A stretch of DNA of 64,000 bases from Erythrobacter sp. (GTDB lineage Bacteria > Pseudomonadota > Alphaproteobacteria > Sphingomonadales > Sphingomonadaceae). Of the stretch, positions 3,948 through 61,018 are shown piece after piece (positions within the stretch are counted from its first letter, which is position 1; each line of letters starts with the position of its first letter). Below the pieces are notes generated by a model that worked only from the letters and a program-made list of their open reading frames with translations, was not told where the DNA came from and ran no database searches. The stretch lies in contig JAPYPR010000001.1 in assembly GCA_029937545.1 (NCBI GenBank), positions 281,645 to 345,644 on the forward strand, read 5' to 3'. Both the position numbers and the translations under genes were made by a program.

Positions 3948-4030
3948 GCGGCACCAGCCCACGCCCCCACCCGGCCACCCACGGCATTATACTGTTTGGG
4001 TGGCCGGGTGGGGGCGTGGGCTGGTGCCGC
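3948..4030. repeat. Perfect 34-bp inverted repeat with 15-base spacer
   Basis: The arms at 3948-3981 and 3997-4030 are exact reverse complements over 34 bases, beginning GCGGCACCAGCCCACGCC on the left. The spacer 3982-3996 is AT-richer (CATTATACTG). Homology continues outward as CTTGCGG on the left and CCGCAAG on the right if one extra CGG triplet on the left (about 3946-3950) is allowed. The element lies between two convergent genes. The transcript of either strand would fold into a very stable stem. It has no coding potential of its own, no target duplication I can see and no transposase. A MITE/REP-like element or a bidirectional terminator are both possible. Confidence 0.92.
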
Positions 4031-4036
4031 AAGCAA

Positions 4037-4050
4037 TCGACGGATGTCGA
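4037..4050 (-). repeat. ATCC-loop hairpin (minus orientation), copy 1
   Basis: TCGAC-GGAT-GTCGA, a 5-bp stem whose loop reads ATCC on the minus strand. A second copy with similar flanks (GCGCACTC here, GCGTACTC there) follows at 4105-4124, so this is also a direct repeat of about 24 bases. Its orientation is opposite to the hairpin at 3924, so the pair brackets the 34-bp inverted repeat. Confidence 0.6.
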
Positions 4051-4104
4051 TAGCGCACTCAGCAAAGGCTCCGGGAAGGGGGAGTGGGACGGAACAGTCG
4101 CAAA

Positions 4105-4124
4105 CCTTCGACGGATGTCGAAGG
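4105..4124 (-). repeat. ATCC-loop hairpin (minus orientation), copy 2
   Basis: CCTTCGAC-GGAT-GTCGAAGG, an 8-bp perfect stem with the loop ATCC on the minus strand. It sits 22 bases from the DNA ligase stop, so on the minus strand it follows that gene and could act as part of its transcript end. The stem differs from copy 1 at 4037 while the loop is unchanged. Confidence 0.6.
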
Positions 4125-4145
4125 CGTACTCCACAAAAACCAAAC

Positions 4146-21006: not shown

Positions 21007-21020
21007 GAGTTTGGTTTTCC

Positions 21021-21130
21021 GCAGCCGCATCCACGGCTGCGTCCTCGCTCACGCGACCTGACGGTCGCATCGCTGCGGGCGGCCGCATGGCCTTGCTTCG
21101 CCTTTGGCTCGGTGCTCTGGGAGGGGCGAG
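21021..21130 (+). repeat. Palindromic repeat R1 (single unit) between rsfS and rlmH
   Basis: Single copy of a roughly 100-base unit that occurs as inverted pairs at 50.36-50.63 kb and 59.83-60.12 kb. It opens with the hairpin GCAGCCG-CATCCA-CGGCTGC (21021-21040), followed by GCGACC-TGAC-GGTCGC (21053-21068) and GGCC-GCAT-GGCC (21081-21092), and ends in GGCTCGGTGCTCTGGGAGG (to about 21124). Shared stretches with the right half of R3 include TCCTCGCTCACGCGACCTGA. It stops only a few bases before the rlmH ribosome-binding site. Confidence 0.88.
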
Positions 21131-21145
21131 CGGTGGAGGGTCATC

Positions 21146-50343: not shown

Positions 50344-50356
50344 GTGTAGAGCCTTT

Positions 50357-50632
50357 GTTGGCGAACCCGCATCCGTGGGTTCGTCCTCGGGGCTGTTCCT
50401 CCGCTGCGCTACGGGCCCCTGCGGGCGGGCGGGCGCCCTTGCCGGACCTCCACCGGCCCGGTGCTCTGGGAGGGGCGGCCTTGCACCAACCATTCCTCTC
50501 CTAGAGAACCGAGCCGAAGGCGAGGCAAGCGCGACTGCGCGCCCGCAGCGATGCGACCGCCCGGTTGCATGAGCGAGGAAACCCAAGTGAGCGGATGCGA
50601 ACGCCGGCGACTGAGGCCACAAAGACGAAAAA
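50357..50632. repeat. Palindromic repeat R2 (two units in inverted order)
   Basis: About 275 bases forming one long imperfect palindrome between the CNNM gene and tRNA-Thr. Left unit: hairpin CGAACCC-GCATCCGT-GGGTTCG (50362-50383), then TCCTCGGGGCTGTTCC and onward to CGGTGCTCTGGGAGG. Right unit, reversed: CCTAGAGAACCGAGCC, GAGGCAAGCG, GCGACC-GCCC-GGTTGC hairpin (about 50554-50569) and GAGCGAGGAAACCC, ending with GCGGATGCG. The right unit, reverse complemented, aligns with R1. It reaches right up to the tRNA 3' end. Confidence 0.88.
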
Positions 50633-50707
50633 TGGTGCTGCTGGGGAGGATTGAACTCCCGGCCTCACCCTTACCAAGGGTGCGCTCTACCACTGAGCTA
50701 CAGCAGC
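50633..50707 (-). tRNA. tRNA-Thr (anticodon GGT)
   Basis: 75 bases including encoded CCA. Acceptor stem GCTGCTG/CAGCAGC, D-arm GCTC-AGTGGTA-GAGC, anticodon stem CACCC/GGGTG with loop TTGGTAA (anticodon GGT, reads ACC/ACT), T-arm GGGAG-TTCAATC-CTCCC, discriminator A. A TTTTT follows CCA at once on the minus strand. It is read toward repeat R2. Confidence 0.98.
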
Positions 50708-50818
50708 ACATCGGCCCGCGAAAAGCCTCGCGGGGTGGAGGCGCGCGCTAATGGCAGAGCGGGCGGCAAAGTCAACCTTCGCTTGAGCCGCGCAGCGAAA
50801 TTGGCAAAAGGTTGCGCG

Positions 50819-50962
50819 ATGAGCGCCGACAACGACAAATCGACCCGCGAAGAGCGCCTCGCCGCGAAACTTCGCGAGAACCTCCGCCGCCGCAAGGTGC
50901 AGACACGCGAACTGCGCGACTCGGGCGAAGACGGGCTTTCCAAGGATGGGCCGGACCGCTAA
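50819..50962 (+). CDS. Small basic/charged hypothetical protein upstream of gpmA
   Basis: A 47-aa protein, [20 protein letters not shown] to the end at SKDGPDR, mostly a charged helix ([17 protein letters not shown]). AAAAGG lies 6-11 bases before the ATG. I recall similar tiny proteins before gpmA in sphingomonads, but no function is known. 31 bases separate it from gpmA. Confidence 0.65.
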
Positions 50963-50993
50963 CGCGCGAGGCCACGCAAGCCGGGGAGCATCG

Positions 50994-51680
50994 ATGTCCA
51001 AACTGATCCTAGTCCGCCATGGCCAGAGCGAGTGGAACCTCGCCAACCGCTTCACCGGCTGGTGGGATGTCGACCTGACCGAAAAGGGCGAGATCGAAGC
51101 GCGCGAGGCGGGCGAGCTGATGAAGGCCAAGGGTGTGCTACCGACCACTGCCTTCACGAGCGTGCAGAAGCGCGCGATCAAGACGCTCAACATCGCGCTG
51201 GAAGCCTGCGATCGGCTATGGATCCCTGTCACGCGCGACTGGCATCTGAACGAGCGGCATTATGGCGGGCTGACCGGTCTCAACAAGCAGGAAACCCGCG
51301 ACCGGCACGGCGACGAGCAGGTCCATATCTGGCGCCGCAGCTACGATGTGCCACCGCCCGAAATGGAGCAGGGCAGCGAATTCGAAATGGCGGACGATCC
51401 GCGCTATGCCGGGATCGAGGTGCCACGCACCGAAAGCCTCAAGCTGACGATCGAGCGCGTGCTGCCCTACTGGAAAAGCGCGATCCTGCCGAAGCTGGGC
51501 GAAGGCGAGACGGTCATCATCTCGGCCCATGGCAATAGCCTGCGCGCGCTAGTGAAGCACCTCTCCAACATTTCGGACGACGAGATCACCGGCCTCGAAA
51601 TCCCGACCGGCCAGCCGATCGTCTACGAGTTCGACGGCACGCAGGTTTCGGGCGAGCGCTATTATTTGAAGGATAGTTGA
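50994..51680 (+). CDS. gpmA: 2,3-bisphosphoglycerate-dependent phosphoglycerate mutase
   Basis: Interconverts 3- and 2-phosphoglycerate in glycolysis/gluconeogenesis. 228 aa, with the phosphohistidine motif [10 protein letters not shown] (His near residue 9), [14 protein letters not shown] and the late [10 protein letters not shown]. The ATG at 50994 ([10 protein letters not shown]) has GGGGAG upstream. It is followed one base later by purE. Confidence 0.96.
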
Positions 51681-51681
51681 G

Positions 51682-52176
51682 ATGGCTGCCTCAAGCGCGC
51701 CGAAGGTTGCAATCGTCATGGGCAGCCAGTCCGACTGGGACACGATGCGCTGCGCGGCGGCCGTCTTAAAGGAGCTTGAGGTCGAAACCGACGTACGGAT
51801 CGTCTCGGCACACCGCACCCCCGACCGCATGTACGAATTCGCCAAGGGCGCGGCCGAGGCCGGTTTCGAGGTCATCATCGCTGGCGCAGGCGGCGCGGCG
51901 CATCTGCCGGGCATGATTGCTGCCCTCACGCATGTGCCGGTGCTGGGCGTGCCGGTGCAATCGAAAGCGCTTTCGGGTGAGGACAGCCTGCTATCGATCG
52001 TACAGATGCCTGCCGGGGTTCCGGTTGGGACGCTGGCGATCGGACAGGCGGGCGCGACCAATGCGGGCTTGCTCGCTGCCGCGATTCTCGCAAATCACGA
52101 CACGGACTTGTCGCAGCGCCTGCAGGATTGGCGCGCGGCGCGCAGCGCAGCCGTGACCGAGCGGCCGGTCGACTGA
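51682..52176 (+). CDS. purE: N5-carboxyaminoimidazole ribonucleotide mutase
   Basis: Class I PurE (164 aa) that moves the carboxylate from N5 to C4 in purine synthesis. Motifs: [12 protein letters not shown] (about 12-23), [13 protein letters not shown] and [10 protein letters not shown]. It takes the product of PurK, encoded next with a TGATG overlap. Confidence 0.96.
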
Positions 52177-53234
52177 TGCTGCAGCGCGGGGGCACGATCG
52201 GCATACTCGGCGGCGGCCAGCTTGGCCGGATGATGGCGATGAGCGCCGTCCAGCTCGGCTATCGCTGTATCGCCTACGTACCCGATGGCGACACCGTCGC
52301 GACGGACGTCTGCGACGACGTGTTCACCAATTGCTGGGACGATACCGCCGCGCTCGCCGCCTTTGCGGCCAAGTGCGATGCCGTGACGTGGGAGTTCGAG
52401 AACGTTCCCGTCGCCACTGCCAAGGCGATGCCGGAGGGTCGCATCTTCCCGCACCCGCGTGCGCTCGAAACAGCGCAGGACCGCCTGAACGAGAAGCGCT
52501 TCGTCGAGGGCCTTGGCGGCAAGCCTGCCGCCTATGCCCGCGTCGATTCGCCCGACGAGCTGATGGCGGCGGTCGACCGTCTCGGCGCGCCCGGCATCCT
52601 CAAGACCCGTCGCGACGGGTATGATGGCAAAGGCCAGTGGCGCATCGGATCGAGCCGCGATGCGGATGCGCTGCGCCTGCCCGATTCCCCACTGATCTAC
52701 GAAGGCTTCGTCGAGTTCGGGGCGGAGTTCTCCGTCATCCTCGTGCGCGGACAGGATGGCGAGATTCGCTTCTGGGACAGCACGCGCAATGTGCATGAGG
52801 ACGGCATATTGTCGGCCTCGCTATGGCCGGCGGGCGAACTGGTCGAAGAGCAGGTGGGCGAGGCGCGGCGGCTGGCGGGCGAAGTCGCCGATGCGCTGAA
52901 ATATGTCGGCGTGCTGACCTGCGAATTCTTCGCCACGCATGAAGGGCCGATCTTCAACGAGATGGCGCCGCGCGTGCACAATTCGGGCCACTGGACGATC
53001 GAGGGCGCGGCCACCAGCCAGTTCGAAAACCACATCCGCGCGGTCGCGGGCCTGCCGCTGGGCGACACCGCCACCACCGCGGCGGGCGTCGAGATGCGCA
53101 ATATCCTCGGCAAGGAGATCGAGGGAGCGCACGCCTTCCTCGCCGATGCCGACAGCCATCTGCACGATTACGGCAAGCGCGAAGTGCGCGAAGGGCGCAA
53201 GATGGGCCACCTGACGCGTCTGGCGCGCGCATGA
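52176..53234 (+). CDS. purK: 5-(carboxyamino)imidazole ribonucleotide synthase
   Basis: ATP-grasp ligase of 352 aa that carboxylates AIR with bicarbonate and ATP. Starts TIGILGGGQLGRMMAMSAVQ near residue 7; the grasp domain has KTRRDGYDGKGQW and the metal site FNEMAPRVHNSGHW. ATG 52176 shares its A with the purE stop; the upstream extension is in purE. Confidence 0.96.
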   Translation: MLQRGGTIGILGGGQLGRMMAMSAVQLGYRCIAYVPDGDTVATDVCDDVFTNCWDDTAALAAFAAKCDAVTWEFENVPVATAKAMPEGRIFPHPRALETAQDRLNEKRFVEGLGGKPAAYARVDSPDELMAAVDRLGAPGILKTRRDGYDGKGQWRIGSSRDADALRLPDSPLIYEGFVEFGAEFSVILVRGQDGEIRFWDSTRNVHEDGILSASLWPAGELVEEQVGEARRLAGEVADALKYVGVLTCEFFATHEGPIFNEMAPRVHNSGHWTIEGAATSQFENHIRAVAGLPLGDTATTAAGVEMRNILGKEIEGAHAFLADADSHLHDYGKREVREGRKMGHLTRLARA

Positions 53235-53737
53235 GCCTGTTCTGCATCTATGCCCGCGCCGCCAATGGCGCGATCGGCAAGGACGGTCGCCTGCCGTGGC
53301 ATCTGCCCGCCGATCTGAAGCGCTTCAAGGCGCTGACGATGGGGCCGGACAAACAGGGCCTGCCGATGATCATGGGCCGCAAGACCTTCGAGAGCCTGCC
53401 CGGCCTGCTCCCCGGCCGCCGCCATATCGTGTTGACCCGGCGCGAGCGGTGGGATTCGACCGGCGCGGAAGTCGTCCGCTCGGTCGAGGAAGCGCTGGCC
53501 GTCGCGGGCGACACCGACATCGCCGTCATCGGCGGCGCGGCGATCTTCGATGTCTTTCTGCCGCAGGCGGAGCGGGTCGAGCTGACGCAGATCCACCAGG
53601 AATTCGATGGCGACGTATTCATGCAGCCACTCGGCCCCGAATGGGAAATCGCCGGACGGCAGGACTTCGAGGCCGAGGGCGACGTGCCGGCCTATTCCTT
53701 CCTCACCTACGAACGTGTCGGCGAAAGCGCGGCGTGA
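53231..53737 (+). CDS. folA: Dihydrofolate reductase
   Basis: NADPH-dependent reduction of dihydrofolate, 168 aa. ANGAIGKDGRLPWHLPADLK with the acidic active-site Asp, MGRKTFESLPGLLPGRRHIV for NADPH, and VIGGAAIFDVFLP are characteristic. The ATG overlaps the purK stop and the stop overlaps the ribF GTG, so folate, purine and flavin genes are coupled. Confidence 0.96.
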   Translation: MSLFCIYARAANGAIGKDGRLPWHLPADLKRFKALTMGPDKQGLPMIMGRKTFESLPGLLPGRRHIVLTRRERWDSTGAEVVRSVEEALAVAGDTDIAVIGGAAIFDVFLPQAERVELTQIHQEFDGDVFMQPLGPEWEIAGRQDFEAEGDVPAYSFLTYERVGESAA

Positions 53738-54660
53738 GGTTCCTCGATCACCGCGACGAATTGCCCGAGAGCCTGCGGGGCGCGGTGATCGCGCTCGGCA
53801 ATTTCGACGGCTTCCACCTCGGCCACCAGGCAGTCGCGCGGCAAGCGATCGACTGGGCGCGGGCCGAGGGCCGGCCCAGCATCATAGCGACCTTCGATCC
53901 GCATCCCGTGCGCCATTTCCAGCCCGACGCGCCGCCGTTCCGCCTGACGACGCTGGAGCAGCGGCAGGAACTCTACCTTGCCGCCGGGGCCACCGCGATG
54001 CTGGTGTTCCATTTCGACGCCGAACTTGCGGGCACGACGGCGGAGGATTTCGTCCGGAAGCTGCTCGGCGAGCATCTCGGCGTGACGGGCGTCGTCACGG
54101 GCGAGGACTTTACCTTCGGCAAGGCGCGCGGCGGCAATTTCGACAAACTGGTGAGCCTCGGCAGGGAGGTCGGCATCGAAGCGCGCGCCGCCACGCCGGT
54201 GATGGACCATGGCAAGCCCGTCTCCTCCAGTCGCGTGCGCGACGCCCTGCGTGAAGGCGACCCGCAGGAAGCCGCGCGCCTGCTCACCCGCCCCTTCGCG
54301 ATTCGCGGGATAGTGCAGCATGGCGACAAACGCGGGCGCGAGATCGGCTATCCTACGGCGAACCTGCCGATAGAGCACTATCTGCGCCCGAAATACGGCA
54401 TCTACGCCGTCACCGGGCGCATCCTCTCGACCGGGCAGGAGCTAAAGGGCGCGGCCAATCTCGGCGTCCGCCCGCAATTCGATCCGCCCAAGGAATTGCT
54501 CGAGCCCTATTTCTTCGACTTCTCCGGCGACCTCTACGGGCAGGAGATCGAGGTGGCCTTCCACCACTTCCTGCGCGGCGAGGCGAAGTTCGACAGCCTC
54601 GATGCGCTGATCGAGCAGATGGAGCGCGATTGCCAGCGGGCGAAAGACTTGCTCGCGTGA
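53734..54660 (+). CDS. ribF: Bifunctional riboflavin kinase / FAD synthetase
   Basis: Makes FMN from riboflavin and then FAD. 308 aa from GTG 53734 (VRFLDHRDEL), which overlaps the folA stop. The FAD synthetase domain (about 15-180) has LGNFDGFHLGHQ at 21-32 and SSSRVRDAL; the kinase domain (about 185-305) has RGREIGYPTANLP and the FDFSGDLYGQEIEV end. The very long frame back to 53296 runs through folA and is not real. Confidence 0.96.
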   Translation: MRFLDHRDELPESLRGAVIALGNFDGFHLGHQAVARQAIDWARAEGRPSIIATFDPHPVRHFQPDAPPFRLTTLEQRQELYLAAGATAMLVFHFDAELAGTTAEDFVRKLLGEHLGVTGVVTGEDFTFGKARGGNFDKLVSLGREVGIEARAATPVMDHGKPVSSSRVRDALREGDPQEAARLLTRPFAIRGIVQHGDKRGREIGYPTANLPIEHYLRPKYGIYAVTGRILSTGQELKGAANLGVRPQFDPPKELLEPYFFDFSGDLYGQEIEVAFHHFLRGEAKFDSLDALIEQMERDCQRAKDLLA

Positions 54661-55709
54661 AACGCTGGCTCAAGATACTCGGCATGGCGGGCGCGGTGCT
54701 GTTCCTCGTCCTCACCGTGGTCAATGCCAGCTGGCTCGCGCCCGAACCCAAGGGCGCCGCCAAGATCATCGCCCATCGCGGGATCTCCCAGCAATATGAC
54801 AAGACCGGGCTGGGCCGCGACGATTGCACCGCCACCCGTATCGAGCAGCCGGTGCATGATTACCTCGAGAACACCACCCGCTCCATCGCCCGCACGGCGA
54901 AGCTTGGCGCCACTCTGGTAGAGGTCGATATCGCCCCCACCAGCGATGGCGAAATGGCGGTGTTCCACGACTGGACCGTCGATTGCCGTACCCAGGCGAG
55001 CGGCGACACGCGGGACTTCGCGCTCGAGGAGCTGAAGGCACTCGACGCGGGCTATGGCTACACTGCCGATGGCGGCGAGAGCTTCCCGTTCCGCGACGAA
55101 GGCGTGGGCGCGATCCCCTCGCTGGAAGAAGCGATGCAGGCGTCGGGCCGGGCGCAGCTGCTCTACACCTTCAAGAGCAAGGATTCGTCGGAAGCCGATT
55201 TGTTGGCGGCGAAGATCAAAGCAGCCGATCGCGACACCGGCCCGCGCGGCGATGCCTTTTATGGCGCGAAAGGTCCGGTGGACCGCATCCGCACGCATTT
55301 CCCCGATGCTTGGGCCTTCTCGCTGGAAGAGGGCCAGCAATGCTCGCGCGACTACATGCTGCTCGGCTGGAGCGGCTATGTGCCCGAGAGCTGCCGGAAC
55401 GGCACCGCCTTCGTGCCGCTGGATTATCAATGGGCGTTCTGGGGTTGGCCCAACCGCATGATCTCGCGGATGGAATCGGTCGGCGCGCGCATCGTGGTGC
55501 TCGGCCCGCAGGGCGAGGGGCGACCGCGTGGACTCGACCTGCCCGAACAGCTCGGCGAGATCCCGGCGAGCTTCAACGGCTACGTCATGGTTGACGACAG
55601 CCTCGCGGTCATCCCCGCCCTGATCCAGCGCTTCGACGACCGCACGCCGGAGGAATTCGAGCGCTTGCAGGGCGGGCTGGAGCGCAGGCGGGCGCGGCGG
55701 GGGGACTGA
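54657..55709 (+). CDS. Glycerophosphodiester phosphodiesterase family protein
   Basis: A 350-aa GDPD-type TIM barrel. N-terminal membrane anchor/signal (about 7-25), catalytic IIAHRGISQ (about 39-47), VEVDIAPTSDGEMAVFHDW with metal and catalytic residues. GTG at 54657 overlaps the ribF stop. Probably faces the periplasm and cleaves glycerophosphodiesters from lipids; specificity unknown. Last gene of the purE-to-GDPD chain. Confidence 0.9.
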   Translation: MKRWLKILGMAGAVLFLVLTVVNASWLAPEPKGAAKIIAHRGISQQYDKTGLGRDDCTATRIEQPVHDYLENTTRSIARTAKLGATLVEVDIAPTSDGEMAVFHDWTVDCRTQASGDTRDFALEELKALDAGYGYTADGGESFPFRDEGVGAIPSLEEAMQASGRAQLLYTFKSKDSSEADLLAAKIKAADRDTGPRGDAFYGAKGPVDRIRTHFPDAWAFSLEEGQQCSRDYMLLGWSGYVPESCRNGTAFVPLDYQWAFWGWPNRMISRMESVGARIVVLGPQGEGRPRGLDLPEQLGEIPASFNGYVMVDDSLAVIPALIQRFDDRTPEEFERLQGGLERRRARRGD

Positions 55710-55745
55710 TTGGTCTGCTCACTTGGCGGTGTCGCGCTTGATTTT

Positions 55746-55918
55746 GTTTTTCGCAGAGAGCGCAAAGGAAAAAGAGCCGCAGAGATGTCTCGCCTAGCCG
55801 AAGGCTCATCTCATCTTATCGACGTTGCGGCTGGAGGGATGTCTGGAGAAGGAGAGCGGCTTCGCCGCAGGCACAACATCTTCGCGTCTTTCTTCCCTCC
55901 GCGCTCTCTGCGAGAAAC
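55746..55918. repeat. Imperfect inverted repeat R4 before ileS
   Basis: Arms of about 42 bases at 55746-55787 and 55877-55918 pair with perfect core TCGCAGAGAGCGC (55751-55763) against GCGCTCTCTGCGA (55901-55913), then alternating matches through AGG, CGC and AGATG. The 90-base interior includes smaller stems around GCCGAAGGC. It is unrelated to R1-R3. The rest of the 289-base gap (55710-55998) shows no gene; the ileS promoter should lie right of the repeat. Confidence 0.85.
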
Positions 55919-55998
55919 CATAGCCCGCACGACGCCCGCAGCCCCGCACGCGCGAAACACTTTCTCGCCTCGCGCAAATCGGCTAGCGGGCTGCGCGT

Positions 55999-58869
55999 AT
56001 GTCCGAACAGCGCGATTATAGAGACACGGTCTTCCTGCCCAAGACCGATTTTCCCATGAAGGCCGGCTTGCCCCAGAAGGAGCCGGGCATCCAGTCGCGC
56101 TGGGAGGACGAGCAGCTCTATACCCAGCTGCGCGAGGCCCGCATCGGGCGGAGCAAGTTCATCTTCCACGACGGCCCGCCCTACGCCAATGGCGACATGC
56201 ATATCGGCCATGCGCTGAACCACGTGCTGAAGGACATGGTCTGCCGCACGCAGAACCTGCTCGGCAAGGATGCGCCCTATGTGCCCGGCTGGGATTGCCA
56301 CGGCCTGCCGATCGAATGGAAGGTCGAGGAGCAGTATCGCAAGAAGAAGCTCGACAAGAAGGCCGTTCCCCCGGCGGAATTCCGCGCCGAATGCCGCGCC
56401 TATGCGCAGCACTGGGTCAATGTGCAGCGCGAGCAATTGAAGCGCCTCGGCGTGATGGCGGATTGGGACAATCCCTATCTCACCATGCAGTTCGACAGCG
56501 AGGCGACCATCGTGGCCGAGCTGATGAAGTTCGCCGAAGCAGGCAATCTCTATCGGGGCTCGAAGCCGGTGATGTGGAGCCCGGTCGAGGAAACCGCACT
56601 GGCCGAGGCGGAGGTGGAATACGAGGACATCGTCTCGACCCAGATCGACGTGGCGTTCGAGATCACCGAGAGTCCGATCGAGGAACTGAAGGGTGCTTAC
56701 GCGGTAATCTGGACCACCACGCCGTGGACGATACCGGTGAACCAGGCGATCGCCTATGGGCCGGACGATGAGTACAAATTGTTCCGCATCACGGTTTCAA
56801 TGACTGGCTTTGACACGGTCAATGCGTTGGAGCGACCCACCTTCGACGCTCTGAACGAGCGTAAGGTTGTCATCGCCAACGATGAGGTCTTGATCGCTGA
56901 GTTCAACAGCCGACTGAGAGAAAGCTGGCCTGGAGCCGGACTGGTCGATCTCGAAGAATGGTCAGGCAAAGGCTCCGACCTCGCCGAAACCGTCGCCCGC
57001 CACCCGATGCACCATCTCGGCGGGTTCTACGCCAAGCCGCGCCCCTTCCTGCCGGGCGATTTCGTCACCACCGACAGCGGCACGGGCCTCGTCCACATGT
57101 CGCCCGATCATGGCGAGGACGATTTCCTGCTGTGCCGCGAATACGGGCTGGAACCGCAATTCGCAGTCATGGCCGACGGGCGCTATCGCGACGACTGGCC
57201 GTGGCTGGGCGGGGATGACGAGCGCCGCCGCGCGGTGATCAACAAGGGCCTGAATGCGCCCGACGGCCCGATCTGCTCCGACCTGCGCGAAGCGGGCGCG
57301 CTGCTCTCGGCGAGCGACGACTACCAGCACTCCTACCCGCACAGCTGGCGCTCCAAGGCCAAGGTCATCTACCGCTGCACCCCGCAATGGTTCGTGCCGA
57401 TGGACAAGGAACTGAGCGGCGGCGGAACCCTGCGCGAGCGCGCGACACAGGCCATCGCCGACACCCGCTTCGTGCCCGAAAAGGGCCGCAACCGCATCGG
57501 TTCGATGGTCGAAGGCCGCCCCGACTGGGTGCTCTCCCGCCAGCGCGCCTGGGGCGTGCCGATCACGCTGTTCGTCAAGACCGGCACCGGCGAGTATCTG
57601 CAGGACACAGCTGTCAACGCGCGCGTCGTCGAGGCGGTGCGCGAGCAGGGCGTCGATGCCTGGGACGAAAGCCGCAAGGCCGAATTTCTCGGGTCCGATC
57701 ACGATCCCGACGATTACGAGATGGTCACCGACATTCTCGACGTCTGGTTCGATTCGGGCTGCACCCATGCCTTCGTGCTCGAAAGCGGGCGCTGGCCGGA
57801 AATGCAGTGGCCTGCGGACCTCTATCTCGAGGGCAGCGACCAGCATCGCGGCTGGTTCCAGTCCTCCCTGCTCGAAAGCTGCGCCACGCGGGGCCGTGCG
57901 CCCTATAACCAGATCCTGACCCACGGCTTCACCATGGATGCCAAAGGCAAGAAGATGTCGAAGAGCCTCGGCAACACCATCGATCCCCTGAAGGTGATGG
58001 AGCAATATGGCGCGGATATCATCCGCCTGTGGGCGCTCTCGGTCGACTATACCGAGGATCACCGCATCGGCGACGAGATCCTGAAAGGGGTCGCCGACCA
58101 GTACCGCAAGCTGCGCAACACCTTCCGCTATTTGCTCGGCGCGCTCGACGGTTTCGTCGGCGACATGGGCGATGCGGGCGAGGTGCCGGAGCTGGAGCTT
58201 TACGTGCTCGCCCTGCTGGCCGATCTGGACGGCAAGCTGCGCAAGGCGGTCGATGATTACGACTTCAACGCCTACACCCGCCTGCTCGTGGATTTCTGCA
58301 ACGAGGACCTGTCGGCCTTCTTCTTCGATATCCGCAAGGACGTGCTCTATTGCGACGGGCCGGACAGCACCAGGCGCAACGCCTATCGCACCGTGCTCGA
58401 CCTGCTGTTCCACGCGCTGGTCCGCTATGCGGCGCCGGTTCTGGTGTTCACGGCGGAGGAAGTCTGGAGCACGCGCTATCCGGATGGCGGAAGTGTTCAC
58501 CTGCTCGAATGGCCGCAGGTGCCCGGCGTCACTGCGGACGGAGCGAAGTGGAGCAAGCTGCGCGACTTGCGCGAAGACGTGATGGAAGCGATCGAGCCGC
58601 TGCGGCGCGAGAAGGTGATCCGCTCCGGCCTCGAAGCCGATGTCACCGTGCCTGCCGATGCGGTGCCGGAGGGCTTTAGCGATGCCGATCTCGCCGAACT
58701 GTTCATCACCGCGTCAGTCACGCGGGGGCAGGGCGACGCGGTGACCGTGAGCCGGACAGACGAGAACAAGTGCGGGCGCTGCTGGCGCCTGCTGCCGAGC
58801 GTGGCCGAAGACGGCGCGCTGTGCGACCGCTGCGAGGATGTTGTCGTCCAGCAGGACGCAGCCGCATGA
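55999..58869 (+). CDS. ileS: Isoleucine--tRNA ligase
   Basis: Class I synthetase, 956 aa. HIGH motif HIGH at 68-71 (DMHIGHALN), KMSKS at 652-656, CP1 editing domain in between with WTTTPWTIPVN, and a C-terminal zinc knuckle CGRCWRLLP/CDRCEDVV. Residues about 258-325 (56770-56970) differ in codon use and base composition from the rest and look longer than in common IleRS, yet the frame is intact. The stop overlaps lspA by 4 nt. Confidence 0.96.
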   Translation: MSEQRDYRDTVFLPKTDFPMKAGLPQKEPGIQSRWEDEQLYTQLREARIGRSKFIFHDGPPYANGDMHIGHALNHVLKDMVCRTQNLLGKDAPYVPGWDCHGLPIEWKVEEQYRKKKLDKKAVPPAEFRAECRAYAQHWVNVQREQLKRLGVMADWDNPYLTMQFDSEATIVAELMKFAEAGNLYRGSKPVMWSPVEETALAEAEVEYEDIVSTQIDVAFEITESPIEELKGAYAVIWTTTPWTIPVNQAIAYGPDDEYKLFRITVSMTGFDTVNALERPTFDALNERKVVIANDEVLIAEFNSRLRESWPGAGLVDLEEWSGKGSDLAETVARHPMHHLGGFYAKPRPFLPGDFVTTDSGTGLVHMSPDHGEDDFLLCREYGLEPQFAVMADGRYRDDWPWLGGDDERRRAVINKGLNAPDGPICSDLREAGALLSASDDYQHSYPHSWRSKAKVIYRCTPQWFVPMDKELSGGGTLRERATQAIADTRFVPEKGRNRIGSMVEGRPDWVLSRQRAWGVPITLFVKTGTGEYLQDTAVNARVVEAVREQGVDAWDESRKAEFLGSDHDPDDYEMVTDILDVWFDSGCTHAFVLESGRWPEMQWPADLYLEGSDQHRGWFQSSLLESCATRGRAPYNQILTHGFTMDAKGKKMSKSLGNTIDPLKVMEQYGADIIRLWALSVDYTEDHRIGDEILKGVADQYRKLRNTFRYLLGALDGFVGDMGDAGEVPELELYVLALLADLDGKLRKAVDDYDFNAYTRLLVDFCNEDLSAFFFDIRKDVLYCDGPDSTRRNAYRTVLDLLFHALVRYAAPVLVFTAEEVWSTRYPDGGSVHLLEWPQVPGVTADGAKWSKLRDLREDVMEAIEPLRREKVIRSGLEADVTVPADAVPEGFSDADLAELFITASVTRGQGDAVTVSRTDENKCGRCWRLLPSVAEDGALCDRCEDVVVQQDAAA

Positions 58870-59414
58870 ACCCTGTGATGACGAACCGCCTGATCGGCTG
58901 CGTCGTCGCGCTGGTGCTGTTCGCCGTCGACCAGTGGTCGAAGAATTACGTCACCAAGACGCTCGGCATTGACGAGATCGGCAAGGCGATGGAGCTGCTG
59001 CCGATATTCGATCTGCGTTTCACCCGCAATTTCGGCGTCTCGCTTGGGATGTTCGAGGCGACCAGCCCGGAGATGCGCTGGGGCCTCGTGCTCGTCACCG
59101 GCCTCATCGCGCTGGTGGTGACGGTGTGGATGCTGCGCGAGAAGCTGCTCGGCGATATCATTGCGCTGTCCTTCATCCTCGGCGGGGCGCTGGGCAACAT
59201 CAAGGATCGTTACGAGCTCGGCTATGTGGTCGATTTCGCCGATCTGCATTTCGGGGATTTCCGCCCCTTCCTGATCTTCAATGTCGCCGATGCCGCCATT
59301 ACCATCGGCGTCGTCATCGTCCTTGCGCGCGCCTTCTTCATGCGCGACAATGACGACAAGGAGGTCGACGACCTCATGAACACCAAGGCGGCCGATGCCG
59401 CGGAGAGCAAGTGA
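58866..59414 (+). CDS. lspA: Lipoprotein signal peptidase (signal peptidase II)
   Basis: Aspartic membrane protease that removes lipoprotein signals. 182 aa, four membrane helices, catalytic Asp in VVDFADLHF and FNVADAAITIG, plus RNFGVSLG and GGALGNIKDR. ATG 58866 (MNPVMTNRL) overlaps the ileS stop. Next to a lipoprotein gene (bamF) which is its likely substrate. Confidence 0.95.
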   Translation: MNPVMTNRLIGCVVALVLFAVDQWSKNYVTKTLGIDEIGKAMELLPIFDLRFTRNFGVSLGMFEATSPEMRWGLVLVTGLIALVVTVWMLREKLLGDIIALSFILGGALGNIKDRYELGYVVDFADLHFGDFRPFLIFNVADAAITIGVVIVLARAFFMRDNDDKEVDDLMNTKAADAAESK

Positions 59415-59824
59415 TGACCAAATTCGCCCGTATCGCCCTCATCGCCGGGCTCGGCGCCATGACCGCAGCCTGCGGCAGCGGCGGCCTGCTCAATCGCGAC
59501 CGGCCCGACGAATTCGCCGTGCAGCGCCAGGCGCCGCTGGTGGTCCCGCCCGATTTCAACCTCGAACCGCCCGCACCCGGCGCTCCCCGCCCGGCGGAAG
59601 GCACGACGGCCGAGCAGGCGCTCGACGCTCTGTTCGGCGGCCCGGCCCCGCGCTCCAGCGTGGAAACCAGCGTCCTCGACCGCGCCGGAGCAGCCGCTCC
59701 CGGCATCCGCTCCAGCGTCGGCGACCCCGGCACCGCCACGGTCGCCAAGGGTTCGGTCACCCGCGACATCATCGCCGCGCCCGAAGGCGACGGCGCGACG
59801 GCGGTCGCGGTAATACCGGGTTGA
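59411..59824 (+). CDS. bamF: DUF3035 lipoprotein, BamF-type BAM complex subunit
   Basis: A 137-aa lipoprotein with signal ending at lipobox TAAC (about residue 21) and the family motif RPDEFAVQRQAPLVVPPDFN (about 31-50). In Caulobacter such a protein, BamF, is an alphaproteobacterial subunit of the outer-membrane beta-barrel assembly complex. The remainder is low-complexity Pro/Ala/Gly. GTG 59411 overlaps the lspA stop; the ATG right after may be used instead. Confidence 0.85.
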   Translation: MMTKFARIALIAGLGAMTAACGSGGLLNRDRPDEFAVQRQAPLVVPPDFNLEPPAPGAPRPAEGTTAEQALDALFGGPAPRSSVETSVLDRAGAAAPGIRSSVGDPGTATVAKGSVTRDIIAAPEGDGATAVAVIPG

Positions 59825-59830
59825 TTGCTT

Positions 59831-60116
59831 TTCGCACCGACATCCGTCGGTGCGTCCTCGGCGCTGTTCTTCCTTCGTTACGCTCAGTCAGGCACCTGTG
59901 GGCGGGCGGTCGCCCTTGCCGGGCCTCCCCCGGCCCGGTGCTCTAGGAGAGGTGAGATTGCACGCTCTGGCGCGACGTAGCGCCACCTAGAGAACCGAGG
60001 CGAAGCCGAGGCAAGGGCCGACCGGCGGCCCAGCAGCGATGCGGCCGTCAGGTCGCGTGAGCGAGGAAAGCCTAAGGCCGCGGACGCGGCCGCCGGCGCT
60101 TGAGGCCAGACAAACA
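59831..60116. repeat. Palindromic repeat R3 (two units in inverted order)
   Basis: About 285 bases between the convergent bamF and SDR genes. Left unit opens with CGCACCGAC-ATCC-GTCGGTGCG (59833-59854), a 9-bp stem. The centre is CGGTGCTCTAGG (59936-59947) paired with CCTAGAGAACCG (59986-59997, one mismatch), enclosing the hairpin TGGCGC-GACGTA-GCGCCA (59968-59985). The right unit reversed matches R1 (GCTCACGCGACCTGACGG is identical). It ends near GGCCAGACAAACAAAAACC. Nearly the whole convergent gap is repeat. Confidence 0.88.
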
Positions 60117-60121
60117 AAAAC

Positions 60122-61018
60122 CTATATACTCTGCTCGGCCTTATCCTGCGCATTCGCCCCTTTGATCATGTCGCGCATCGCGCTCCATTCCTCGTCGCCC
60201 AGCCCGTGCAGCGCGCCCCAGAAGGTGCCGCCGGTCGCCTGGTAGCCTGCGCCGTCGATGGCGATGGTCTGGCCGTTCACCCATTCCGCGCCCGGCCCCA
60301 TCAAGAAGGTCGCAAGATTGGCGAGTTCGTGCATCTCGCCATGGCGCCCCATCGGGTTCATTTCGTCGTTCGAATTGCCGCCGCGCCCGCCGGGTGAGAG
60401 CCGCGCGCTCATGCCCTTGGTCGGGAAGAGGCCGGGGGCAATGGCGTTGAAGCGCAGGCCATAACGGCCCCATTCGACCGCGAGGCTCTGCGTCATCGCA
60501 TTGATGCCTGCCTTGCTCATCGCGCTGGGCACAACGAAGGCGCTGCCGTTCCACACCCATGTCGTGAGGATCGAGAGAAAACTCGCCTTGCGCTTTTCCG
60601 CGATCAGCCTCGTGCCGACTTCCAGCGTGACGTAGAACGTTCCGCGAAAGACGATGTCGCTGATGGCGTTGAAACCGTTGACCGACAGATCCTCCGTCCG
60701 GCTGACGAAATTGCCCGCCGCATTGTTGACCACGCCGGTCAGCGGCCCGCGCTCCCAGATGGCATCGACCATCGCCTTGATCGCGTCCGCATCGCGAATA
60801 TCGCAGGCATGGCCGACCACCGTGCCGTCATGCGCGTCCATCATCTGTTGCGCGGTTTCGTCGAGCTTGCCCTTTCGCCGCCCGCAAATGTGGACCTCGG
60901 CGCCCAGCTTGAGGAAGGCTTCGGTCATCACCTTGCCGAGGCCCGTGCCGCCACCGGTGACGAGAATGCGCTCCCCGTCCATCAGGCCATCGCGGAACAT
61001 CAGCTTGTCGATTTCCAT
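60122..61018 (-). CDS. SDR family oxidoreductase, 2,4-dienoyl-CoA reductase-like
   Basis: Short-chain reductase of 298 aa with cofactor motif VTGGGTGLGKVM and NNAAGNF. The usual YxxxK is replaced by FVVPSAMSKAGINAM, where Ser and Lys remain; the same arrangement occurs in mitochondrial-type 2,4-dienoyl-CoA reductase (DECR1), so it probably reduces dienoyl-CoA with NADPH during degradation of unsaturated fatty acids. ATG 61018 has AAGGAGAG upstream; the frame extending to 61564 lies under the PH-domain gene. Confidence 0.87.
   Translation of the reverse strand: MEIDKLMFRDGLMDGERILVTGGGTGLGKVMTEAFLKLGAEVHICGRRKGKLDETAQQMMDAHDGTVVGHACDIRDADAIKAMVDAIWERGPLTGVVNNAAGNFVSRTEDLSVNGFNAISDIVFRGTFYVTLEVGTRLIAEKRKASFLSILTTWVWNGSAFVVPSAMSKAGINAMTQSLAVEWGRYGLRFNAIAPGLFPTKGMSARLSPGGRGGNSNDEMNPMGRHGEMHELANLATFLMGPGAEWVNGQTIAIDGAGYQATGGTFWGALHGLGDEEWSAMRDMIKGANAQDKAEQSI

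Follow-up and report, generated by a model that had tools for sequence, protein, structure and literature searches.

A dispersed family of paired palindromic repeats at gene ends in Erythrobacter

The 64,000-nt stretch of an Erythrobacter sp. genome analyzed here (the window) carries five arms of a dispersed palindromic repeat family, as one single arm (R1) and two inverted pairs (R2 and R3). With a probability of roughly two in three, this family works like REP/BIME repeats, as a non-autonomous DNA repeat of ~257 bp that is composed of inverted arms (A> <B) and located behind stop codons. The family is real and genome-wide, far beyond what chance would produce. All five units proposed in the first-pass annotation (21021–21130, 50357–50632, and 59831–60116) were recovered at about those places (Table 1), and a DNA search of the whole genome with R3 gave 19 matches (E ≤ 0.001), R3 itself counted. 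With covariance models built from 11 A arms and 7 B-type arms of this genome, the A model had 21 matches and the B model 30 at E ≤ 0.1. At E ≤ 0.01, with the matches of both models merged by hand, the genome holds 20 sites (9 paired and 11 single), such that the five copies of the window are not the only ones.

Architecture and distribution of the arms

Each arm is a string of four hairpins (H1–H4), about 115–130 nt in length, and is of type A or type B. The usual element consists of two arms placed tail to tail, A> <B, with A> <A pairs also present, and complete pairs (n = 41) span 206–302 bp (median, 257 bp). An A arm comprises, in order, a T-rich leader, H1 (common form, CGnACCC-GC-MTCC-GC-GGGTnCG), the linker TCCTCGCT, H2, the linker CCGCTGCGGG, H3, CTTGC, and H4 (CCGGGCC..GGCCCGG). 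B arms have GGCCTCAAGCGCCGG ahead of H1 and an H4 that is weaker than in A arms. The T-rich ends extend over ~12 nt (majority consensus, TTTTTTGTTT) and are inverted at the two ends of the element, while the composition of the flanks is ordinary past 13 nt from the ends (179 A-type and 29 B-type ends for both). No convincing target-site duplication was identified in the 41 pairs when the boundaries were allowed to shift; the longest exact candidate, 5 nt, occurred once.

Among the five units of the window, R2a and R3a are A arms, R2b and R3b are B arms, and R1 is a chimera in which the alignment joins an A-type H1 to a B-type body. The T-rich leader of R2b, reaching to about 50632, abuts a tRNA-Thr gene (50633–50707), and that of R3b, reaching to about 60121, adjoins the stop codon (60122–60124) of a convergent SDR gene (Pfam). 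The ATCC loop, originally described as the conserved feature of H1, proved to be one variant among several: of 226 H1 hairpins, 92 have ATCC, 87 CTCC, and 6 GTCC, the last being the loop of R3b. The H1 of R2b pairs poorly (by eye). On C31 of this genome, two B-type arms (L347, 1836–1945 and 2616–2725) have ACGCCGGGCG ahead of H1 together with a TTCGGCCTAACCGGCCGG block, and may form a separate subfamily.

Table 1. Repeat arms, outer hairpins, and neighboring features in the window
Feature	Position	Strand	Basis or remark
R1, single arm, A-type outer hairpin and B-type body	21008..21131	+	covariance models and alignment
R1 neighbors, rsfS (stop ends 21006) and rlmH			Pfam RsfS, SPOUT_MTase
H1 of R1, 8-bp stem, ATCC in loop	21020..21041	+	
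R2 A arm (R2a), 3' of the stop of a CNNM/CorC-type gene (ends 50343)	50350..50470	+	A covariance model, Pfam
H1 of R2 A arm	50362..50383	+	
R2 B arm (R2b)	50490..50618	-	B covariance model
Segment between R2 and R3 (tRNA-Thr to DUF3035), ~9 kb	50633..59824		inverted in 3 of 6 relatives examined
R3 A arm (R3a), model match begins at the stop of the DUF3035 gene (ends 59824)	59821..59947	+	covariance model, Pfam
H1 of R3 A arm, 9-bp stem, ATCC loop, 8 nt 3' of the DUF3035 stop	59833..59854	+	
R3 B arm (R3b)	59976..60107	-	B covariance model

Within the genus, an A-arm match was present in 22 of 24 relatives, and one of the two genomes that lack it (G018) has a B-type arm; A-arm matches were absent from all 16 genomes of other families of the order. 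In a broader sample of the family, copies occurred in 63 of 199 genomes (34 of 96 genera), and in a sample of the order in 72 of 296 genomes, all 72 from one family (this genome counted in both samples). Because scoring in these samples was limited to the 17 or 12 best candidates of a genome, the copy numbers obtained there are lower bounds. In the samples searched, the element is confined to one bacterial family. The exact A-arm pattern matched seven stretches in named records, four from Erythrobacter and three from Qipengyuania. Carriage on plasmids was rejected, R3 having no match to the plasmid records of PLSDB, where records very near this genome may be absent.

Gene ends, turnover, and a 9-kb inversion

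The first-pass annotation suggested tabulating position relative to gene ends, and this was possible for 166 elements with an A-model match and a gene called on both sides, after dropping duplicates (three loci) and elements <300 nt from the end of a locus. Genes were called with a simple codon-bias script and individual distances may be wrong. The elements lie predominantly (151 of 166) between convergent (n = 65) or tandem (n = 86) genes, abutting stop codons, with 15 between divergent genes. Control gene pairs numbered 22 convergent, 94 tandem, and 26 divergent (p = 1.1e-5); these controls were drawn from the window together with six regions that share orthology with a part of it. The other junctions at the same loci were 25 convergent, 144 tandem, and 34 divergent. 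Of 216 element edges that face a stop codon, 148 were ≤15 nt away from it (median distance, 1 nt), against 12 of 116 for edges that face a start codon. Almost all convergent elements (62 of 65) had at least one edge ≤25 nt from a stop, and 37 had both. For predicted REPs of E. coli, a passage of PMC12306157 places about 11% (446 of 4,072) within 15 nt of a stop codon.

At shared junctions, the element is absent or different in close relatives, and often reduced to one arm. The gap between rsfS and rlmH ranged from 12 to 268 nt in 18 gene copies from 17 genomes (G012 has two), and was short (12–67 nt) in six gene copies. An arm occupied this gap (A model, E ≤ 0.01) in nine of the 17 genomes (G000, which is this genome, G004 with E = 0.008, G005, G006, G007, G010, G011, G013, and G015). 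In a tree of rsfS and rlmH (698 columns, 3 of 15 inner branches well supported), the well-supported sister pairs G000/G006, G005/G011, and G013/G015 each have different repeats at this junction, with one arm versus a pair in two of the three and different stems in the third. The pair of G011 is also among the 41 complete pairs, and the second arm of G015 was recognized by eye (E = 0.073). In G002 and G014, a few nucleotides separate the DUF3035 and SDR genes, and this junction contains one arm in G006 and a pair in this genome.

The ~9-kb segment between R2 and R3 is inverted in G004, G013, and G015 relative to G000, G006, G014, and G002, with the caveats that the gene beyond tRNA-Thr was not found in G006 and the tRNA letters of G002 were not matched exactly. 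Repeats were present at the ends of the segment, as pairs at both junctions in G004, a pair at one junction in G013 and G015, and R2 and R3 in this genome, and the repeats may have caused the inversion.

Stem pairing and likeness to known repeats

Two-sided changes that keep the stems paired, as noted for the outer hairpins in the first-pass annotation, were confirmed by covariation. In the A arms (n = 11), 92.5% of cells were paired and 27 were double-change cells (shuffled mean, 8.1; 0 of 500 shuffles as high), and in the B-type arms (n = 7), 91.7% were paired and 15 were double-change cells (shuffled mean, 4.6; 0 of 500 as high). The paired percentage, the double-change cells, and the covariation score exceeded all 500 shuffles for both arm types, and further pair types in the B-type arms did not (163 of 500 as high). 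Sliding the structures reduced pairing to 27–43%. This is strong but non-independent proof of the fold, as the aligned arms are related to one another and themselves served as the basis for drawing the structure. Single-sequence folding was little or no better than shuffles for four of the five units (z, −0.33 to −1.42; R2a, −2.69), and so the support for the fold comes from covariation and not from energy.

Conservation of H1 as an RNA of the arm strand would predict a greater tolerance of G–U than of A–C. The mismatches in the 226 H1 hairpins were 15 G–T and 51 A–C, and among distinct H1 stems (n = 107) there were 14 G–T and 30 A–C (p = 0.023), opposite to the expectation for RNA. For distinct stems of H2, H3, and H4, the ratios of G–T to A–C were 29/19, 7/2, and 32/21, a small G–T excess that was not significant, with H3 poorly anchored and its loops misplaced. 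The G–U asymmetry was therefore discarded as a proof of RNA selection, H1 giving no G–T excess over A–C. According to a passage of PMC8794818, template switching during replication can create, maintain, and repair hairpins without stepwise selection. Because H1 lacks a G–U excess and template switching can correct palindromes, covariation was not taken as proof of an RNA role; thus, the compensatory changes stand, while the accompanying deduction that it is the fold which is kept is not secured by them. The palindromes are probably kept at the DNA level at least as much as by RNA folding.

The proposal that this lineage has a dispersed family resembling REP/BIME elements or MITEs is supported in form, dispersal, location at gene ends, and turnover. 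With the REPs of the GTAG superfamily the element shares inverted unit pairs, convergent and tandem junctions, and proximity to stop codons, and with BIMEs it shares inverted pairs of two distinct unit types (A> <B). REPs, however, are 20–40 bp with one palindrome, compared to an arm of about 115–130 bp with four hairpins, and the alignments have no GTAG tag at either end. The suggested RayT partner did not materialize: PF01797 (Y1_Tnp) had no match in this genome and matched only one of 24 same-genus genomes, although 22 of the 24 carry elements, and RAYT was rejected as partner on the basis of these searches, for which a control search was positive in 5 of 14 named genomes. According to PMC3733652, REP singletons are remnants of pairs in one species. 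The same text describes CGTC-tagged REPs of Alphaproteobacteria that lack a transposase, form inverted dimers, have no known mover, and lie between convergent genes at <20 bp from their 3' ends or, in tandem pairs, near where the upstream gene ends, as defined by a 5' CGTC tag, A–T at the first two stem positions, and a CCA tail. An alphaproteobacterial host, the lack of a dedicated transposase, adjacency to the 3' ends of ORFs, and inverted pairs are all likenesses to these, but the arms here have no unpaired 5' CGTC tag, no CCA tail, and, as a rule, no A–T in the first two stem pairs. In the arms, a CGTC string is restricted to the 3' side of H1, where the CG is base-paired, and a pattern for the classical CGTC REP had no match in the window. 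The element is classed here as working like REP/BIME repeats and as a member of neither tagged superfamily.

MITEs are similar in being short, without a gene, and with terminal inverted ends, here T-rich (TTTTTTGTTT), but differ in that the 41 pairs have no target-site duplication. As to an autonomous parent with matching ends, the one gene seen between inward-facing arms of this genome is small-terminase-like (see below), and the transposase family searched, Y1_Tnp, gave no match in this genome. No known RNA family was matched, as Rfam gave only tRNA for the window at gathering scores and nothing for R3 alone at E ≤ 1. RIME, Bru-RS, ERIC, and RPE-1 are intergenic palindromic elements of about 100–150 bp. 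The present element resembles them in being intergenic, palindromic, and of similar size. RPE-1 and the Brucella repeats are mentioned in PMC3733652, which in the passages available covers sphingomonads and names 'E. lithoralis' (abbreviated there; REP type not given in the passage) among REP hosts, and its figures (consensus sequences and species list) could include an Erythrobacter family that overlaps this one. The literature covered, with few subscription papers, contained no description of the repeat or of the link to small terminases described below.

Gene transfer agent genes, small-terminase paralogs, and competing explanations

Three pairs of this genome are inside a gene transfer agent (GTA)-type head/tail gene cluster (C61, 43.9–48.5 kb), whose Pfam families include portal, prohead protease, capsid, connector, tail completion, tail tube, and a GTA-gp10 family protein. 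The GTA cluster of G004 has the same three junctions occupied and a fourth pair. Across 14 same-genus loci, an element was located 3' of the capsid gene in six (G000, G004, G007, G023, G001, and G003) and was not seen there in eight (G024, G006, G011, G016, G002, G017, G009, and G015), and four genomes have elements flanking the major capsid gene (G000, L314, C61:42000–50500; G004, L315; G007, L324; G023, L325). At the capsid junction, by eye, the element follows a hairpin and T-run in G000 and G004 and precedes the hairpin in G007 and G023. The eight species without an element at the capsid have a hairpin directly 3' of the capsid stop, mostly followed by a T-rich stretch (by eye; L317–L320, L322, L323, L326, and L328), which is possibly an attenuator of the GTA cluster.

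One gene was seen between inward-facing arms of this genome, a terminase small subunit (TerS)-like gene in a region of C31 (L346, 2062–3407) between an A and a B arm, the gaps from arm to gene to arm being 27 and 16 nt for a gene start at L346:3205. A related TerS-like gene lies 3' of a B arm, and both match phrog_4044, terminase small subunit (E = 4.5e-21 and 3.3e-7). In tblastn searches with both genes, 21 of 187 loci obtained via the repeat had matches (6 of 20 own sites, around three genes, and 15 of 167 others; the latter 9 of 57, 1 of 7, and 5 of 103 in a hand-made grouping), compared to 0 of 106 loci obtained via rlmH, SDR, capsid, Y1_Tnp, or synteny, roughly half of them from other families. 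A search with an alignment of 15 members identified 126 members in 25 same-genus genomes (G000 counted; 1–11 each), many outside the GTA cluster, and one or two members in all but one of the 16 genomes from other families of the order. As members directly precede the large terminase gene (in two other-family genomes and in the GTA cluster of this genome), the family is one of GTA small-terminase relatives. In this genome, the members on C99, on C15, and in the GTA cluster have no nearby element, while those on C20 and C31 (two) do.

Of the 126 same-genus members, 44 were inspected (the best of each of 24 genomes and 20 further members, the latter with the B covariance model and DNA profiles, without the A covariance model). 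An element was near 24 of the 44 (≤350 nt upstream of 21, ≤250 nt downstream of 8, and both for 5), with none near 20. If a genome is assumed to have 2,800 genes, its 9.4 A-arm matches would lead one to expect about 0.3 of 44, an expectation that uses A-arm matches alone while the observed neighbors were counted with more models; even at five times this rate the binomial probability is 4e-24 (shared ancestry uncorrected). The 24 are not independent, as the loci are partly orthologous, yet they represent several distinct gene neighborhoods. With the alignment built from element-adjacent members, the association is a lead and not a measured effect size. The location upstream of TerS-like genes runs counter to the rule that elements abut stop codons, and would be consistent with self-regulation or a REPtron-like unit. 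Similar to a REPtron, the TerS-like gene family is repeatedly flanked by the repeats (on both sides in 5 of the 44 and on C31), though the gene resembles a small terminase (phrog_4044) and not a Y1 (HUH) transposase.

In the preferred explanation, a dispersed family working like REP/BIME repeats, the element would spread or be exchanged as DNA via a trans-acting factor and recombination between copies, and would persist at gene ends because it is least harmful there. Recombination between copies could explain replacement without transposition, no transposase being tied to the element and no target-site duplication being present. The palindromes would be kept via template-switch repair or the recognition of single-stranded or cruciform DNA. 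Once transcribed, the hairpins would form the 3' end structure of the upstream gene and act by blocking exonucleases or as a site of processing; they are not followed by a U-run, which speaks against a classical terminator. The preference for stop codons is stronger than expected from harm avoidance alone, which counts against this explanation. A role for the arms as RNA, in which selected 3'-UTR structures end or protect mRNAs under purifying selection on the fold, is a doubtful alternative: the covariation in both arm types, the position directly behind stop codons, the single arms between tandem genes that point in the gene direction (28 of 45), and the elements flanking the major capsid gene agree with it, whereas H1 has no G–T excess, the other 17 of 45 single arms face against the genes, junctions of close relatives lack the repeat, no Rfam family matched, and the capsid junction has a separate hairpin in all eight repeat-free species (by eye). 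As a bidirectional intrinsic terminator, the element would suit the 65 convergent junctions, but the T-run precedes H1 on the arm strand (by eye) rather than following the hairpin, and more than half of the elements (86 of 166) are between tandem genes, some inside an operon-like cluster, making this reading very unlikely.

Neutral palindromes without function, kept by template switching and spread by recombination only, would account for near-perfect but changing stems without wobble bias in H1 and for an inversion that ends at copies, and the passage of PMC8794818 allows for such maintenance. The linkers (TCCTCGCT, GCTGCGGG, and CTTGCC) and the ends are nevertheless conserved and the own-genome model matches 34 of 96 genera, and since conservation of linkers and ends is unexpected without constraint or recent spread, this reading is disfavored and appears rather unlikely. 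It is also unlikely that the repeats belong to a REPtron-like module in which they are bound, regulated, or moved by GTA TerS paralogs encoded next to or between inward-facing arms. The frequency of elements beside the inspected members, the arrangement on C31, the phrog_4044 matches, the members that directly precede the large terminase, and the confinement of tblastn matches to element-derived loci are in its favor; against it, the search alignment favors orthologs of element-adjacent members, the 44 are those inspected of 126, 20 of them lack an element, and the expected count is A-arm-based with an assumed gene number. Further, G002 has 11 members and no A-arm match, and the paralogs match helix-turn-helix (HTH) families weakly, under the Pfam cut-offs, one paralog having no such match; no Pfam family reached its cut-off in them. 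Small terminases are not known to have strand-transfer activity. The TerS-like paralogs are, from their position beside elements, a candidate partner of the repeat. The fuller scenario, that a GTA small terminase multiplied into paralogs which recognize palindromes by their own genes, in the head cluster, and behind stop codons, and regulate or move them or mark packaging sites, is improbable.

If the link to small terminases holds, dispersed chromosomal palindromes would be tied to GTAs, the packaging of which is held to be random, and specific DNA binding by the TerS paralogs is a testable question. The repeat family amounts to a natural experiment: closely related species show one junction occupied, empty, or exchanged, the two arm types can be set against each other, and a candidate partner can be named among protein families. 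Elsewhere in the window, a perfect inverted repeat (3948–4030; 34 nt with a 15-nt spacer), seemingly unrelated to the arm family, is followed by a direct repeat (4028–4066 and 4099–4137).
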